From: Nonomuraea sp. PA05
GTDB lineage: Bacteria > Actinomycetota > Actinomycetes > Streptosporangiales > Streptosporangiaceae
DNA length: 64,000 nt
Assembly (NCBI RefSeq): GCF_008086045.1
Contig: NZ_VSEY01000022.1
Coordinates: forward strand, 1-64,000
Direction of reading: 5' to 3'
Under the pieces are notes generated by a model. The model did no database searches. It saw only the letters and a list, made by a program, of their open reading frames with translations, and was not told where the DNA came from. The translations under genes and the position numbers were made by a program. Shown one piece after another: positions 53,318-61,436 of this stretch; position 1 is the first letter of the stretch; every line of letters starts with the position of its first letter.

Positions 53318-53636
53318 GGGGCAAGCGTTCTGCGCGCGTCCACCGGAGATGGCAGGCCGTTCTCACGCCCAAGCCTGAGCTTACTTTGTAAAGGCGCCAG
53401 GATGGGCGTGCCATCCGGGTTCAGCTCCCGGCCAACCGCGTCGAGCCCGCTGGAACACCGACGGTCGGCGACCGCCCTGCCGAGATCCCTGACCACATCG
53501 ACGCAACGACGGGGCAGCGCTCGGACCCTGAGGTTCATTGCCTGCCTCGGTGGCCAGTGTTTACCGAATTCTGGCCGACGACAGCGCGATTCCTCGATCC
53601 CCTGTGGCGATCGCCGGGGTTCCGCTCTCAACATGT

Positions 53637-53652
53637 ATCGACTATCGTCGAT
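53637..53652 (+). promoter_or_regulatory. ArsR-type operator
   Basis: ATCGAC, TATC, GTCGAT is a perfect palindrome ending five bases before the start codon of the ArsR gene. A bound repressor would block transcription start. Confidence 0.65.
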
Positions 53653-53657
53653 TAACG

Positions 53658-53993
53658 ATGAATGAGGAGAAGGGGCCGCTGCCGCGTGCGGAGGCCGAAG
53701 AATACGCGAGCTGGTTCAAGGCGCTGGCCGACGCCACCCGCATCCAGATCGTGTCGCTGCTGGCCCGGCGGCGCACGCCGATGAGCGTGGGCGAGATCGT
53801 GACCGCCTCCGGGGTGGGCCAGTCCACCGTCTCGCACCACCTGAAGATCCTGGCCGAGGTGCGGTTCGTGCTGGTCGAGAAGCAGGGCACCTCCAGCCTG
53901 TACCGGATCAACGAGAGCTGTGTGGGCTGTTTCCCGACCGCCGCTGACGTCGTCATGGGCAACCCTGTCCCGGCCGCGCCCACCTGCGAATGA
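53658..53993 (+). CDS. arsR: ArsR-family repressor
   Basis: A 111-residue winged-helix protein: ADATRIQIVSLLARRRTPMS, GVGQSTVSHHLKILAEVRFV and LVEKQGTSSLYRINESCVGC. It lacks the classical ELCVCDL site in the recognition region; instead cysteines sit in CVGC at residues about 95-98 and near the C-terminus (PTCE). C-terminal cysteines are used for sensing in some ArsR types, including methylarsenite sensors. The gene stands 12 bases before the methyltransferase fusion, which it should control. Confidence 0.88.
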   Translation: MNEEKGPLPRAEAEEYASWFKALADATRIQIVSLLARRRTPMSVGEIVTASGVGQSTVSHHLKILAEVRFVLVEKQGTSSLYRINESCVGCFPTAADVVMGNPVPAAPTCE

Positions 53994-54005
53994 AGGAGCC
54001 TGGTC

Positions 54006-55226
54006 ATGGCGCACGATGAGATCGTCGACCACTACTCCGCCCTGGCCCGCGCCGCGGACGCCGGCCGGACGGTCACCGACTGCGGGCAGGACGCGTTCGA
54101 GCAGGGCCGTTTTGGCGCGGCCGGCTACGACGACCTGGCTGTGCTACCCGAGGGGGCGGTGCGGGCCAGCCTGGGCTGCGGCAATCCGGTGGCCGTCGCC
54201 GAGCTGCAGCGCGGCGAGACGGTGCTCGACCTCGGCTCGGGCGGCGGCATCGACGTGCTGCTGTCGGCGCGCCGCGTCGGCCCCGAGGGCCGGGTCTACG
54301 GGGTGGACGCCAGCACGGACATGCTCGCCCTGGCCCGGCGCAACGCCGAACAGGCCGGTGCGGCCGGCGTGGAGTTCCTGCACGGCACGATCGAGCAGGT
54401 GCCACTGCCGGACCGGGTGGTGGACGTGATCATCTCCAACTGTGTGATCAACCTGTCCGGCGACAAGGCGACCGTGCTGGCCGAGGCGTTCCGGGTACTG
54501 CGGCCCGGCGGCCGGTTCGGCGTCAGCGACGTCGTCGCCGCGCACGTCCTGGATGAGCAGGCGCGGCAGCGGGCCGAGCAGCGCATCGGCTGCGCGGCCG
54601 GATCGCTCACCGTGCGGGAGTATCGGGACCTGCTGGCCGCGTCGGGGTTCGTTCAGATCGCCATCATGTTGAGCGCCGATCACGGCGACGGGGTGCACTC
54701 GGCCATCGTCCGGGCCGTCAAGCCCGCCATCGGGCCCGGCCTGGAGATCCGGCCGATGCGCGAGGGCGACGCCGAGCAGGTGCTGGCCATCTACCAGGCC
54801 GGGCTGGACACCGGCCAGGCCGGCTTCGAGACCACCGCGCCCAGCTGGGAGGGCTTCACCGCGAGCCGGTTGCCGCGCCTGCGGTACGTCGCCGTGGACG
54901 GCGACCGCGGCGAGGTGCTCGGCTGGGTGGCGGCTTCGGCGGTGTCGTCCCGCCCGGTGTATGCGGGCGTGGTCGAGCACAGCATCTACGTCCACCCCGG
55001 CTGCCAGGCCCACGGCATCGGCCGGGCGCTGCTGGCGGCGTTCATCGCCGCCGCCGAGGACGCCGGCGTATGGACGATCCAGTCCGGCGTCTTTCCCGAG
55101 AATGCCGCCAGCCTGTCCCTGCACCAGGCGCTCGGTTTCCGGGTGGTCGGCACGCGCGAGCGCATCGGACGCCACCGCGACGTCTGGCGTGACGTGCTGC
55201 TGATCGAACGTCGCAGCGATGTCTGA
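54006..55226 (+). CDS. arsenite methyltransferase fused to ArsN1-type N-acetyltransferase
   Basis: A 406-residue two-domain protein. Residues 1-235 are ArsM: SAM site LDLGSGGGIDVLLSA, and cysteines in TDCGQD (about 26), LGCGNP (58), SNCVINLSGDK (about 144) and RIGCAAG (about 198), matching the As(III)-binding set of the family. Residues 245-406 are a GNAT of the phosphinothricin-acetyltransferase/ArsN1 type (IRPMREGDAEQVLAIYQAGL, HSIYVHPGCQAHGIGRALL, NAASLSLHQALGFRVVGT). ArsN1 acetylates the amino group of arsinothricin. In most genomes the two are separate. It lies 12 bases after an arsR, with AAGGAG before its ATG. Confidence 0.9.
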   Translation: MAHDEIVDHYSALARAADAGRTVTDCGQDAFEQGRFGAAGYDDLAVLPEGAVRASLGCGNPVAVAELQRGETVLDLGSGGGIDVLLSARRVGPEGRVYGVDASTDMLALARRNAEQAGAAGVEFLHGTIEQVPLPDRVVDVIISNCVINLSGDKATVLAEAFRVLRPGGRFGVSDVVAAHVLDEQARQRAEQRIGCAAGSLTVREYRDLLAASGFVQIAIMLSADHGDGVHSAIVRAVKPAIGPGLEIRPMREGDAEQVLAIYQAGLDTGQAGFETTAPSWEGFTASRLPRLRYVAVDGDRGEVLGWVAASAVSSRPVYAGVVEHSIYVHPGCQAHGIGRALLAAFIAAAEDAGVWTIQSGVFPENAASLSLHQALGFRVVGTRERIGRHRDVWRDVLLIERRSDV

Positions 55227-55775
55227 CCGTCGATCAGCAGCACGCCCTGGTCACCGCAGCCCGCACCATCGCCGCCGAGTTCGCCGGCACCTTCGGCACC
55301 TTCGGCACCTTCGGCACCGAGACCATCGAGCGGTTCTTGCACACCAGCTACGACCAGTTCGCCGGCCGCGCCGTCATCGCCAGCTACCTGCCGCTGCTGG
55401 CCGAGCGGTTCGCCCGCCAGCGGCTGCGCGCTGGCCCGCACCGAGGGCAAGGACGCCAGTGCCCTCGGCTGGTCCGGCGGCACCGAGCCCGGCGAGCTGA
55501 TCAACGCGGCCGTCGTGGAGGCGATGCACGAGCGCGGCATCGGCGTCACCGGCGAGTTCCCCAAGCCCTGGACCAGCGAGATCGTCCAGGCTGCCGACGT
55601 GGTGGTCACCATGGGCCGCGGTGATGTCTGCCCGGTCCACCCGGGCAAGCGCTACCTGGACTGGGACCTGGACGCCCCCGACGGCAAGACGATCGAGCAG
55701 ATCCGCCCGACCCGCGACGATATCGAACGCCGGGTCCGCGCCCTGCTGGCCGACCTCGGCGTCCCGGAAGGCTGA
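55219..55775 (+). pseudogene. broken arsenate reductase with three-helix N-terminal domain
   Basis: The region encodes the pieces of an actinobacterial ArsC with a three-helix dimerisation domain: AARTIAAEFAG and TIERFLHTSYDQFAGRA, then AERFARQRLR. A two-base frame slip leads to ALARTEGKD. The segment that should follow, with the catalytic CVHNAGRSQ loop, is absent, and the text resumes at GGTEPGELINAAVVEAMHER and ends in TMGRGDVCPVHPGKRYLDWD. The first cysteine of TMGCGDACP is also lost (GR). There is a 9-bp triplication (ggcaccttc x3) at about 55290. No good start codon. Inactive. Confidence 0.8.
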
Positions 55776-55808
55776 GAACAGGCTCACGTACCCAGCAGGA
55801 AGAGACGT

Positions 55809-55824
55809 ATGTCAATATAGACAT
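55809..55824 (+). promoter_or_regulatory. ArsR-type operator
   Basis: ATGTC, AATATA, GACAT forms a 16-bp dyad in an AT-rich patch upstream of the second arsR. The element ATGTCAA recurs before two other operons of the island. Confidence 0.65.
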
Positions 55825-55863
55825 GCACCTATTTCGATGAGCATCTATACGGAAGGGCAGTGG

Positions 55864-56250
55864 ATGGAACTGCTAGAGATTCTGGAGTGCAGCCCGCCGC
55901 TGACCCGTGAGCCGCTGGACGCCGGGCAGGCGGCCGGGGTGGCGCGCGTGTTCAAGGCGCTGGGCGACCCGGTACGGCTGCGCATCCTGTCGATCGTGGC
56001 CAGCCGTGCCGGCGGCGAGGTGTGCGTGTGCGACATCACCGACGCCTTCGAGCTGTCCCAGCCGACCATCAGCCACCACTTGAAGGTGCTCAAGGAGGTC
56101 GGCCTGCTGACCTCCGAGCGACGCGCCTCCTGGGTGTACTACCGGCTGGTGCCCGAGACGCTGGGCGAACTGTCGGCGCTGCTGACCCTGCCCACCAGCG
56201 GGCCTGCCGACGGGTCCGCCCGCGTGACGGCCGCTGCGGCGGCACAGTGA
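55864..56250 (+). CDS. arsR: ArsR-family arsenite-responsive repressor
   Basis: A 128-residue ArsR with the classical metalloid site EVCVCDIT near residue 57 in front of the recognition helix (ELSQPTISHHLKVLKEVGLL). Further cysteine in LECSP. ATG 55864 is preferred over an ATG at 55837 because GGAAGGG lies just upstream of it and the family begins with MELLEILE. The stop overlaps the next ATG (TGATG), so it is coupled to the ACR3 gene. Confidence 0.92.
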   Translation: MELLEILECSPPLTREPLDAGQAAGVARVFKALGDPVRLRILSIVASRAGGEVCVCDITDAFELSQPTISHHLKVLKEVGLLTSERRASWVYYRLVPETLGELSALLTLPTSGPADGSARVTAAAAAQ

Positions 56251-57371
56251 TGTCGGCTCAACCTGCACAGGCCACCGCGCCACCCGCCGGGGTAATCGGC
56301 GCTCTGTCGATGCTGGATCGGTTCCTGCCGGTGTGGATCATCGCCGCCATGGGTGCAGGGCTGCTGCTCGGCCGGCTGGTGCCCGGCCTGGACACCGCGC
56401 TGGACGCCGTCAAGATCGGCGAGATCTCGCTGCCGATCGCGCTCGGCCTGCTGCTGATGATGTACCCGGTGCTGGCCAAGGTCCGCTACGACCGGCTCGG
56501 CACCGTCACCGGCGACCGCCGCCTGCTGATCTCCTCCCTGCTGCTCAACTGGGTGCTCGGCCCGGCCCTGATGTTCGCCCTGGCCTGGATCTTCCTGCCC
56601 GACCTGCCCGAGTACCGCACCGGCCTGATCATCGTCGGGCTGGCCCGCTGCATCGCCATGGTGCTCATCTGGAACGACCTGGCCTGCGGCAACCGCGAGG
56701 CCGCCGCCGTCCTGGTCGCGCTCAACTCCCTCTTCCAGGTGATCGCCTTCGGTGCGCTGGGCTGGTTCTACCTGCAGGTGCTGCCCGGCTGGCTCGGCCT
56801 CCCCCAAGCCGCGCTGCAGGTCTCAGCCTTCGACATCGCCTTCTACGTGCTCATCTTCCTCGGCATCCCCCTGCTCGCGGGCTACGCCTCACGCAAGCTC
56901 GGCGAACGCGCCCGCGGTCGCGACTGGTACGAGCAGCGCTTCCTGCCGCGCATCGGCCCGATCGCCCTGTACGGGCTGCTGTTCACCATCGTCATCCTGT
57001 TCGCCCTGCAAGGCCACACCATCACTTCCCAGCCCGGCGACGTGGCCCGCATCGCGCTGCCGCTGCTGGCCTACTTCGCCCTCATGTGGGGCGGCGGCTT
57101 CGCGGTCGGCAAGGTGATCGGCCTGCCGTACGACAAGACGACCACGCTCGCCTTCACCGCCGCCGGCAACAACTTCGAGCTGGCCATCGCCGTGGCGGTC
57201 GGGGTCTTCGGCGTCACCTCCGGCCAGGCCCTGGCCGGTGTGGTGGGCCCGCTCATCGAGGTCCCCGTCCTGGTCGCCCTGGTCTACGTCAGCCTGGCCG
57301 GCCGCCGCCTGTTCCGCACCGCAGAGGAGCCCGCCCGTGCCTGCGAGCGCCCCCGAGACCGCCACCGGTAA
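56250..57371 (+). CDS. acr3: ACR3-family arsenite efflux permease
   Basis: A 373-residue membrane protein with ten predicted helices. Family marks: ARCIAMVLIWNDLACG (near residue 130, with the essential cysteine) and FTAAGNNFELAIAVAVGVFG near residue 300, with Glu in the conserved place. It exports As(OH)3 using the proton gradient. It is coupled at both ends: one base overlap with arsR and 35 bases overlap with arsC. Confidence 0.95.
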   Translation: MSAQPAQATAPPAGVIGALSMLDRFLPVWIIAAMGAGLLLGRLVPGLDTALDAVKIGEISLPIALGLLLMMYPVLAKVRYDRLGTVTGDRRLLISSLLLNWVLGPALMFALAWIFLPDLPEYRTGLIIVGLARCIAMVLIWNDLACGNREAAAVLVALNSLFQVIAFGALGWFYLQVLPGWLGLPQAALQVSAFDIAFYVLIFLGIPLLAGYASRKLGERARGRDWYEQRFLPRIGPIALYGLLFTIVILFALQGHTITSQPGDVARIALPLLAYFALMWGGGFAVGKVIGLPYDKTTTLAFTAAGNNFELAIAVAVGVFGVTSGQALAGVVGPLIEVPVLVALVYVSLAGRRLFRTAEEPARACERPRDRHR

Positions 57372-58788: not shown

Positions 58789-59172
58789 TCAGGCGTGGGC
58801 GGGTGCGGCCATCGGGGTGAACAATTCCCCGAGCCGGGCGACCTGGCCAGGGATGATCCAGTAGTAGACCCAGGTGCCGCGCCGCTCGCTGCCGATCAGC
58901 CCGGCGGTGCGCAGCACCTTCAGGTGGTGGCTGATGGTGGGCGCGGTCAACTCGAAGGCGTCGGTCAGATCGCACACGCACGCCTCACCGCCGGCGTGCG
59001 AGCCGATCAGGGACAGCAGCCGCAGCCGCACGGGGTCGGCCACAGCCTTGAGCAGCACGGCCAGCTCGGCGGCGTCGCCTTCGCCGAGCGGCTCGCGGGC
59101 GATCGGCGCGCAGCACGCCCCGCCGCCGGCCTGCGGGCCGGCCTGGGCGAGAGGCAGGGTGGTGGCGGTCAT
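58789..59172 (-). CDS. arsR: ArsR-family arsenite-responsive repressor
   Basis: A 127-residue ArsR with the metalloid site EACVCDLT near residue 62, the recognition helix ELTAPTISHHLKVLRTAGLI, and an N-terminal cysteine pair (GACCAP). ATG 59172 follows GGGAGG. It is the last gene of the leftward set oxidoreductase-MFS-arsR, 20 bases after the MFS gene. Confidence 0.92.
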   Translation of the reverse strand: MTATTLPLAQAGPQAGGGACCAPIAREPLGEGDAAELAVLLKAVADPVRLRLLSLIGSHAGGEACVCDLTDAFELTAPTISHHLKVLRTAGLIGSERRGTWVYYWIIPGQVARLGELFTPMAAPAHA

Positions 59173-59192
59173 GCGGAAGCCTCCCGGTCGCA

Positions 59193-59843
59193 CTACTGGT
59201 TCGATGCCTGTCTAAATGATAGGCGGTGGTAGAGGGTCAGTGACACGGCGGCGATCAGGCAGGCGAGGGTGACGCCGATCATGACCCATCCGTATCCGGC
59301 CGTATGCGCAAGCGCCAGGGCGGCGGCCGGTGCGGCGGCCTTGGCCAGGGTGACGGGCAGGGCCAGGCGGCCGGACAGGCTGGCGTAGGCGGTGGTGCCG
59401 TAACGCTCGGTCAGCAGATGCGGCTTGATGATGGTGCCCACCCCGAAGCCGAGCCCGAACAGCAGCACCGCCCCGACCGCGCCGGCGGCGGACGCTCCGA
59501 TCAGCGGCAGCAGCAGGGCGGCCACGGCCTGCAGGGCGAAGATTACGGCGGCGATCAGCGCGGCGGGCAGGCGGCGCTGCAGCCCGGTGGTGATCAGCCT
59601 GCCGGTGACCGACAGCACCCCGAGCAGTCCGGCCACGCTCGCGGCCGGCAGCGGGGCGTGGCCGAGGTGGATCAGGTAGGTGATGAGCAGGACCGAGATG
59701 GTGGCCACGCCGATCCCGATGGTCTGGGTGACGGCCAGCGCCGCCACCAGCCGCCGATCACTGCCCGAAGGGCTGCCGGGCGGGGCTTGTGGGCCGTTCG
59801 CGCCGCTGCTCGGAGCAGCGGCGCGAGGATCGGCGGCGGGCAT
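59193..59843 (-). CDS. half-size MFS transporter
   Basis: A 216-residue membrane protein with about six helices (LVAALAVTQTIGIGVATISV, LLGVLSVTGRLITT, LFGLGFGVGTIIKPHLLTER, SLTLYHR). This is the length and pattern of the C-terminal half of an MFS carrier; the N-terminal half is missing. The ATG at 59843 follows GAGGAG, so it is expressed as it stands. It may function as a dimer or be a relic. Next to the FAD oxidoreductase and arsR, it may export an arsenic species. Confidence 0.75.
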   Translation of the reverse strand: MPAADPRAAAPSSGANGPQAPPGSPSGSDRRLVAALAVTQTIGIGVATISVLLITYLIHLGHAPLPAASVAGLLGVLSVTGRLITTGLQRRLPAALIAAVIFALQAVAALLLPLIGASAAGAVGAVLLFGLGFGVGTIIKPHLLTERYGTTAYASLSGRLALPVTLAKAAAPAAALALAHTAGYGWVMIGVTLACLIAAVSLTLYHRLSFRQASNQ

Positions 59844-59896: not shown

Positions 59897-61330
59897 TCAG
59901 CCGCAGCATCCGCCGCCCTGGGCGGCCCCCGTGGTGGCTCCGGTGGTGGCTCCGGTGGTGGCTCCGGTGGTGGCCAGCGGCAGCGGGGTGCCGAGCAGGC
60001 CGCCGCTGATCCCGGTGGCCAGGCCGACCCGCTGCTCCTGGGCCTCGGCCAGGCTGGAGGAGCACACGCCGGTCTCGGGCAGGTCCAGCTGCACCTGCCG
60101 GGCGGCCTCCCAGTCGCCGGCCAGCGCCGCGACGACCGAGCGGGCCTGCTCGTACCCGGTGGCCAGCAGGAAGGTAGGGGCGCGGCCGTAGCTCTTGACG
60201 CCGATCGCGTAGTAGCCGCCCTCGGGGTGGGCGAGCTCGTCGGCGCCGTGCGCCGGGACGGTGCCGCAGGAGTGCGCGTTCGGGTCGATCAGCGGCGCGA
60301 GCGCGCGGGTGGAGCCGAGGATCGGGTCGAGGTCCAGGCGCAGCTCGCTGGCGATGGCGTGGTCGGGACGGTATCCGGTCGCGCTGACGATCTGGTCCGC
60401 CGTCACGCTCTGCTCGTGGCCGGACGGGTCGCGGCTGATCACCCGTACCTGCTCGCCGTTGCGCTCGACGGCGTGCGTGAAGAAGCCGGTGAGCAGGCGG
60501 ATACGGCCGCTTTCGACGTGGGCGTGCAGGCGGGTGCCGAGCGCGCCGCGGGCGGGCAGCGCGTCCGCCTCGCCGCCGCCGTACGTACGGGTGGCGTTGC
60601 CCGCGCGGATCGCCCAGGTGATCGGAGTGTCCTCGAGCTGGGCGAGGGCGAGCAGCGTGGTGGCGGCCGAGTGACCGGCGCCGACGACCAGGACGTGCTT
60701 GCCGGCGTAGCGGTCGCGGTCGGCGCCCAGCACGTCGGGCAGCGCGTGGTCGACCAGGTCCGCCGCGTCGGCCTCGCCGCGGGCGGGCAGGCCGGACGCG
60801 CCGAGCACGTTCGGGGTGGCGTAGGTGCCGGAGGCGTCGATGACCGCGCGGGCGTGCAGCTCGCTCCCGTCGGCCAGGCGGATCAGGAACGGCGCCTGCT
60901 CACGGCCGGCGGTGCGGACCCGGTCGTAGCCGAGCCTGCTGATCGCGCTCACCTTCGCTCCCGTACGGATCCGGGACCCCAGCAGCTTGGCCAGCGGGGC
61001 GAGGTACTCCTCGATCAGCTCGGCGCCGGTGGGCAGCCATTCGGGGTCGGGAGCGCTCCAGCCGTCGGCCTGGAGCAGGCGGCGTGCGGCGGCGTCGATG
61101 TTGTACGTCCACGGGCTGAACACCCGCACATGGCCCCACTGGGCCACCGACGCGCCCGCCTGCTCACCCGATTCCAGCACCACGAAGTCGAGGCCCCGTT
61201 CGGCGAGGTGGGCCGCGGCGGCCAGGCCGATCGGGCCGGCGCCGATGACCACGATGGGCAGATCGCCAGGCTGTGAAGCCTGGCGGCTGGGCTCCAGTTC
61301 GACAGCGGTGGGACCGCAGCATCCGCTCAT
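59897..61330 (-). CDS. FAD-dependent oxidoreductase with CCG ends
   Basis: A 477-residue flavoprotein. VVIGAGPIGLAAAAHL near residue 30 binds FAD, VLVVGAGHSAATTLL near 215 binds NADPH, and VSATGYRPDHAIASE is the FMO-type linker. Unusual are the ends: the start MSGCCGP and the finish GGGCCG, joined to the body by four TTGA repeats. The double CC could bind As(III) or protect it during oxidation or transfer. ATG 61330 follows GAGGAG. First gene of the leftward unit with the half MFS and arsR. Its likely job is arsenic-related redox chemistry, which is inference. Confidence 0.85.
   Translation of the reverse strand: MSGCCGPTAVELEPSRQASQPGDLPIVVIGAGPIGLAAAAHLAERGLDFVVLESGEQAGASVAQWGHVRVFSPWTYNIDAAARRLLQADGWSAPDPEWLPTGAELIEEYLAPLAKLLGSRIRTGAKVSAISRLGYDRVRTAGREQAPFLIRLADGSELHARAVIDASGTYATPNVLGASGLPARGEADAADLVDHALPDVLGADRDRYAGKHVLVVGAGHSAATTLLALAQLEDTPITWAIRAGNATRTYGGGEADALPARGALGTRLHAHVESGRIRLLTGFFTHAVERNGEQVRVISRDPSGHEQSVTADQIVSATGYRPDHAIASELRLDLDPILGSTRALAPLIDPNAHSCGTVPAHGADELAHPEGGYYAIGVKSYGRAPTFLLATGYEQARSVVAALAGDWEAARQVQLDLPETGVCSSSLAEAQEQRVGLATGISGGLLGTPLPLATTGATTGATTGATTGAAQGGGCCG
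59931..59975. repeat. 12-bp tandem repeat coding for TTGA units
   Basis: The unit gtggtggctccg is repeated 3.75 times without error inside the 3' end of the oxidoreductase gene, giving a (TTGA)n linker before the CCG tail. Perfect copies suggest recent slippage and a length that may vary between strains. Confidence 0.85.
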
Positions 61331-61436
61331 GGTGCTTCTCCTCATCGTTACGCGCGACCATGCCGGTCCGCGCTGTTTCGAAGGCTGTCTAAGTAGCTTC
61401 GATGGCAGGATGCCCGACAGGTTAGAGGCATGTCAA

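Follow-up and report, generated by a model that had tools for sequence, protein, structure and literature searches.

A single-chain ArsM-GNAT protein in an ars cluster of Nonomuraea sp. PA05, with repeated loss of the ArsM half among its relatives

Introduction

The locus considered here raises the question of why an arsenite methyltransferase (ArsM) and a GNAT-type acetyltransferase should share one polypeptide, and what such a protein would do for its host. It lies in a 64,000-nucleotide stretch of Nonomuraea sp. PA05 (contig NZ_VSEY01000022.1, positions 1 to 64,000, assembly GCF_008086045.1), referred to below as the window. Arsinothricin (AST) blocks glutamine synthetase; N-acetylation abolishes this activity, and the enzyme tested on it was PpArsN1 of Pseudomonas putida (PMC6465285). 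The arsinothricin pathway is described as ArsL followed by ArsM (PMC8552651). Fused arsenic-resistance proteins are on record: some arsN genes are joined to arsC or arsD (Chauhan 2009, cited by PMC6205960), an ArsR-ArsM fusion has been described (PMC10190100), and further ars fusions are listed in PMC6205960 or related papers. These resemble the present gene in joining arsenic-resistance proteins, with arsN among the partners. Searches of the open-access literature turned up neither an ArsM-GNAT nor an ArsM-ArsN fusion, and no ArsM-acetyltransferase fusion appears in passages of PMC9144182, PMC12607644 and PMC6514093.

The fusion gene and its surroundings

The fusion gene occupies most of an uninterrupted stop-to-stop frame (53994-55226, plus strand) and contains no frameshift that would divide it into two genes. 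It belongs to an ars cluster, with an arsR gene upstream and an arsR, an acr3 and an arsC-type gene downstream (Table 1). The start codon of the upstream arsR was our choice inside a longer open frame (53538-53993). The arsC-like gene that follows the fusion is broken, its C-terminal part being recognised by model in the frame 55227-55775 and its N-terminal part by eye in the frame 55193-55624, and no catalytic Cys-loop was seen in 55193-55775. The minus strand near the cluster also holds an MFS-like frame that scores below the cut-offs.

Table 1. Coordinates of the fusion gene, its halves and the neighbouring ars genes in the window
Feature	Position	Strand	Remarks
arsR, 111 aa, C88/C91/C110	53658..53993	+	ends 12 bases before the fusion gene
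arsM-GNAT fusion gene	54006..55226	+	406 aa, ATG start, stop codon included
ArsM half, residues 1-240	54006..54725	+	NF008823 267.7 bits; likeness to solved ArsMs 4KW7, 4FR0, 5EVJ
GNAT half, residues 246-406	54741..55223	+	ArsN1/PAT superfamily, from NF040503 score, trees and ligand-site table
Broken arsC-like gene after the fusion	55193..55775	+	parts in two frames
Second arsR	55621..56250	+	domain is residues 107-184 of the open frame
acr3 arsenite efflux pump	56022..57371	+	TIGR00832 433.1 bits, cut-off 282.8; model covers residues 95-423
arsC-type reductase, LMW phosphatase fold, CVHNAGRSQ loop	57238..57765	+	102.9 bits, below 157.6 cut-off
Third arsR	58789..59193	-	opposite strand to the fusion gene
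FAD/NAD(P) oxidoreductase, ArsO-like	59897..61345	-	54.2 bits, far below ArsO cut-off 425

The first-pass annotation had read the gene as one chain in which an arsenite methyltransferase with all four expected cysteines is joined to a GNAT domain of the phosphinothricin acetyltransferase (PAT)/ArsN1 type. The methyltransferase name holds as a family assignment. The arsenite methyltransferase model NF008823 (PRK11873) scores the full-length protein at 265.8 bits and residues 1-240 at 267.7 bits, above the NCBIfam cut-off of 263, and the cysteines C26, C58, C146 and C196 are present, which we take to be the arsenic-site set as in CmArsM. The half also contains the SAM motif DLGSGGG. Unlike the ArsMs it resembles, it stops near residue 240, where the chain passes directly into the GNAT domain. 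The fusion is the sole strong ArsM match in the source genome (881.8 bits, the runner-up reaching 49.5). The ArsM half falls far short of the two models for ArsMs of arsinothricin biosynthesis (124 bits with a cut-off of 500, and 77 bits with a cut-off of 240).

The acetyltransferase models match residues 248-402. With the GNAT half scored by itself, the best of the ArsN1/PAT models is ArsN1 family A (NF040503), with 117.3 bits and a cut-off of 170, followed by ArsN1 family B (NF040504; 84 bits, cut-off 210) and phosphinothricin acetyltransferase (NF040502; 45 bits, cut-off 300). The annotation of this half therefore stands as superfamily likeness within an ars cluster and falls short as ArsN1 membership, and the name ArsN1 suits the predicted domain only as a likeness.

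Distribution of the fusion and of its parts

Within the family (Streptosporangiaceae), 78 of 341 genomes have a full-length span, defined as one place running from query residue 6 or lower to residue 400 or higher, and 286 of the 341 have some match at E<=1e-30. This recurrence, together with the 406-aa open frame, upholds the single-chain reading and shows that the fusion is neither a chance event nor an assembly slip. Among the 395 other genomes of the phylum no fusion was found at E<=1e-70, a threshold that weaker fusions could escape, and the furthest extent there was to query residue 312, stops included (genome G362). When one genome per species was searched, the best 80 loci listed included six full-length loci (Nonomuraea, Microbispora, Acrocarpospora) and two further partial loci of the fusion group (L015, L016). 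One locus outside the family (L130:450-2050) has three genes in a row: the arsR orthologue, an internally deleted arsM and a GNAT that is not fused. Three Paenibacillaceae loci matched arsM and GNAT as two neighbouring, unfused genes, two Paenibacillus plasmids likewise have the two genes adjoining, and the one GNAT scored from these arsM neighbours reaches 228.6 bits against the ArsN1a cut-off of 170 and is thus a true member of that family.

Of 111 stretches scanned, 78 have an ArsR orthologue (identity above 55%, C88 and C91 mostly present), 18 have another ArsR and 15 have none; the orthologous gene adjoins many fused, split and GNAT-only relatives.

Phylogeny and ligand-site residues of the GNAT half

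A tree built from 90 GNATs groups the fused rows with their derivatives on a single branch of 53 rows (support 100/98), which is nested in a larger clade of 71 rows (100/98) that is mostly linked to arsR or ars genes. The sister of this clade includes an NCBI-labelled Pseudomonas ArsN1a and the Paenibacillaceae neighbours (99/89). The 90-GNAT tree and a denser tree agree that the window GNAT falls in the clade sister to ArsN1a and not within ArsN1a; long branches, including that of Klebsiella locus L188, were flagged in this placement. PpArsN1 groups with ArsN1b, where its aligned part scores 249.9 bits. The GNATs of the fusions thus form, by sequence kinship, a third, mostly ars-linked clade besides ArsN1a and ArsN1b. 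Because this clade is sister to ArsN1a, the first-pass concern that the domain might cluster with unrelated amino-acid acetyltransferases falls away.

Eleven annotated stretches were read around clade members that are unfused or, in one case, fused to ArsR. Ars genes lie near the GNAT in 10 of them, counting an Agreia stretch that has arsR, an aquaporin gene and an LMW phosphatase only; the exception is an unfused relative on a Clavibacter plasmid, with no ars gene in the 6.7 kb around it. Two further stretches are unannotated. The linkage to ars or arsR spans several actinobacterial families and a Klebsiella plasmid. That plasmid, pKPN-498, carries a clade GNAT (L188:7986-8483, 49.7% identity) adjoining arsR, arsH and arsABC, and 1040 Klebsiella plasmid records have some match.

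Seven ligand residues are given for PpArsN1: I31, F33, R75, A76, R77, A124 and V158 (PMC6465285). Three are retained in the window GNAT (F33, R77, V158) and four are altered (I31A, R75S, A76S, A124F), so that the ArsN1 substrate residues, whose absence had been named as grounds for doubt, are kept in part. Four ArsN1a rows share the residues of the window GNAT at several of these places (A31 in 3/4, S75 in 3/4, F124 in 4/4, R77 in 4/4).

ArsN1 family A is the nearest named family, having these residues (A31, S75, F124, R77), the ars setting and the Paenibacillus arsM neighbour in common with the window GNAT, which differs in its score (117 bits, below the cut-off of 170) and its separate clade. 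PpArsN1 (5JTF/5WPH, family B) shares the superfamily and residues F33, R77, Y80, Y89 and V158; it is unfused, stands in another clade further away than ArsN1a, and differs at positions 31, 75, 76 and 124.

These data bear on the proposal that the GNAT acetylates a non-arsenical glutamate mimic such as phosphinothricin or methionine sulfoximine, or otherwise supports arsenate resistance, its place among ars genes serving regulation. Acetylation by PpArsN1 extends to L-PPT and, weakly, to methionine sulfoximine (PMC6465285), a review credits arsN, alongside arsC or arsD, with arsenate resistance (PMC12607644), and the window domain falls below both ArsN1 cut-offs and differs at R75 and A124. The proposal is nevertheless unlikely, since linkage of the clade to arsR and ars genes recurs in several actinobacterial families and on a Klebsiella plasmid, and its sister group is ArsN1a; this kinship and the ars-cluster setting argue for an arsenical substrate.

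Arsinothricin production or resistance

The first-pass annotation suggested exposure to, or handling of, arsinothricin-like compounds. Production by the source organism was considered and set aside, as neither an ArsL model nor an ArsL protein finds a convincing match in its genome: the best score against the model is 28.2 bits with a cut-off of 450, and ArsL of a Pseudomonas amygdali plasmid gives no match in the source genome at E<=1e-10. Handling in the sense of making arsinothricin is therefore unlikely, and resistance is likelier than production. In the family, ArsL-like proteins of 33-38% identity occur in 8 of 338 genomes, and in 18 of 338 at E<=1e-10. Two genomes of the genus of the window (L240, L241) encode ArsL-like radical SAM proteins (37% identity) that end in RCCVRC, and by eye their genes adjoin a cation antiporter-like gene.

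On the P. amygdali plasmid, arsQ, arsL and arsM are clustered with an aquaporin gene and arsN1b, the aquaporin gene lying between arsM and arsN1b. The arsQ-arsL-arsM pathway (PMC8552651) resembles the present locus in containing an ArsM and, in P. amygdali, a nearby arsN1b; it differs in that no ArsL was found in the source genome and in that the ArsM of the window lies far below the models for that pathway.

Fusion, splitting and other partners of the GNAT

Among 20 further loci, arsR, arsM and GNAT are separate neighbouring genes in three (L213-L215), the order is GNAT-arsR-arsM in four (L216-L219), and the GNAT is unfused in several others. A quick ArsM tree places all the fused ArsMs it contains, except that of L181, on one branch (support 99) together with the seven unfused ArsMs of L213-L219. 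The separate genes of L213-L215 fall among fused rows in both this tree and the denser GNAT tree, a pattern compatible with a single fusion that was later split as well as with several fusions.

GNATs of the clade have further partners. An ArsR-GNAT fusion, annotated as ArsR, lies inside an ars cluster on a Rhodococcus plasmid (L210:3599-4483), and ArsC-GNAT fusions occur in two Streptosporangiaceae genomes (L220:1521-2447, L229:1514-2401). In L228:1690-3006 one open frame holds an AadA-like nucleotidyltransferase part and a clade GNAT. A different fusion, a single-chain ArsM-ArsN2, is present in a member of the Gemmatimonadaceae (L081:5884-7275; ArsN2 134.6 bits, cut-off 125).

It has to be asked whether the two halves might act in sequence, hydroxyarsinothricin (AST-OH) being N-acetylated and As-methylated in either order on one chain to give harmless N-acetyl-arsinothricin, with no toxic intermediate released. 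The proposed step of ArsM in the arsinothricin pathway is the methylation of trivalent AST-OH to AST (PMC8552651), arsM and arsN1 are neighbours in Paenibacillus and stand one aquaporin gene apart, as arsM and arsN1b, in the Pseudomonas arsQ/arsL cluster, and a fusion of ArsM with ArsN2 arose elsewhere. A coupled reaction of this kind is nonetheless quite improbable in view of the many loci where ArsM is lost or damaged and the GNAT kept (below), the fusion of clade GNATs to ArsC and ArsR as well, and the distance of the ArsM half from the biosynthetic models (124 against 500 and 77 against 240 bits).

Loss of the ArsM half

The new finding is an evolutionary one: the ArsM half has been repeatedly deleted or degraded with the GNAT kept, often together with the orthologous arsR. 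Fifteen genomes (L147-L161) among the 80 loci scanned have the GNAT with little or no ArsM, and L222 makes sixteen; beside these 16 loci stands an orthologous ArsR in 11, another ArsR in one and none within the stretch in four. In seven more loci (L162-L167, L169) the ArsM carries deletions or has lost cysteines. L016 and L149 come from the same genome, as do L015 and L167. The reverse case is seen in L170 and L171, which keep ArsM and have no GNAT match, and an interrupted GNAT half (G149:C544) adds a third locus with loss of or damage to the GNAT. Many loci were chosen since they looked incomplete, and these counts are therefore not rates.

On the 90-GNAT tree the ArsM state changes 12 times among the 53 rows, or six times if complete losses only are counted, and the starred branches alone force at least three changes for the GNAT-only label and six for the damaged label, counts that do not separate gain from loss. 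The leaders of the GNAT-only proteins point to loss in the lineages concerned, as N-terminal remnants of ArsM were detected in 8 of the 12 tested (of 16 loci, the test set including the near-copies G181 and G182). Four of the 12 beat all 5000 shuffles, four more were equalled by 8 to 41 of the 5000, and four gave nothing; three of three unfused controls were free of an ArsM remnant. The leaders of L221 and L226 were rejected as methyltransferase remnants, the likeness being by eye only and Pfam giving no methyltransferase match.

In the intact fusions C58 is conserved in 50/50 rows, C146 in 49/50, C196 in 50/50 and C26 in 42/50 (49 of the 50 rows are distinct, L009 and L099 being one gene). 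By the crude NG86 method, dN/dS of the ArsM half exceeds that of the GNAT half in 20 of 25 disjoint pairs of intact fusions, with medians of 0.245 (ArsM) and 0.224 (GNAT) for the disjoint pairs and of 0.373 and 0.265 for the 1219 usable of 1225 pairs. The ArsM half of intact fusions is still under purifying selection, and the gap between the halves is accordingly modest. That the GNAT has repeatedly outlasted ArsM speaks for two activities that can be separated.

The ArsM half might also be decaying in the window itself, leaving a GNAT that is useful alone. Close relatives do decay repeatedly, as in L164 versus L093 (ArsM dN 0.18, GNAT dN 0.009), but L163 versus L090 is a counter-example (ArsM dN 0.026, GNAT dN 0.036 outside the L163 deletion), and the window retains the four cysteines and an intact SAM motif, passes the model cut-off and has no other strong ArsM match in its genome, which makes decay there very unlikely. 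That an assembly error or frameshift merged two genes, for which nothing speaks beyond the broken arsC-like neighbour, has practically no chance of being correct and was ruled out by the identical span in 78 of 341 family genomes.

Proposed role

The explanation to which we incline, at somewhat better than even confidence, is a bifunctional arsenic-resistance enzyme derived from an arsR-(arsM)-GNAT unit with two separable activities, in which the GNAT is the part kept more firmly by selection and the ArsM half is optional. The favoured role is protection against an arsenical antibiotic encountered in soil, arsenic methylation being a second, separable activity. ArsR would release the unit once a trivalent arsenical binds its C-terminal cysteines. 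Judging from its family and conserved residues, the ArsM half would methylate trivalent arsenicals with SAM and its cysteines. The GNAT half, given its kinship with ArsN1a and its ars-cluster setting, would transfer an acetyl group from acetyl-CoA to the amino group of an organoarsenical resembling an amino acid; the likeliest substrate would be arsinothricin or hydroxyarsinothricin, which in acetylated form should no longer block glutamine synthetase. By analogy with PpArsN1 (PMC6465285) the protein is probably a dimer through its GNAT domain. The fusion may be of use mainly in placing both activities under one promoter and on one message, in equal amounts, and we infer that the chain is not an obligate two-step machine.

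A bolder version would make the clade a third class of organoarsenical-antibiotic acetyltransferases, a C-terminal module traded among ArsM, ArsC and ArsR, with the ArsM fusion disarming hydroxyarsinothricin in two coupled steps and with fused and ArsM-free relatives marking soils or neighbours with different arsenical antibiotics; the odds are well against this combination.

Conclusions

Arsinothricin is a broad-spectrum antibiotic, and the known resistance enzymes carry the name ArsN1. The mostly ars-linked clade described here is spread among actinobacteria and occurs on Klebsiella plasmids. It lies outside the named models, and in the database records read its members are therefore labelled "N-acetyltransferase" or "GNAT", and in one case "putative phosphinothricin N-acetyltransferase". 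Relatives in fused, split, half-decayed and ArsM-free states form a natural series with which it can be tested which activity selection retains. If the clade does acetylate arsenical antibiotics, resistance to them would be wider than present models show.
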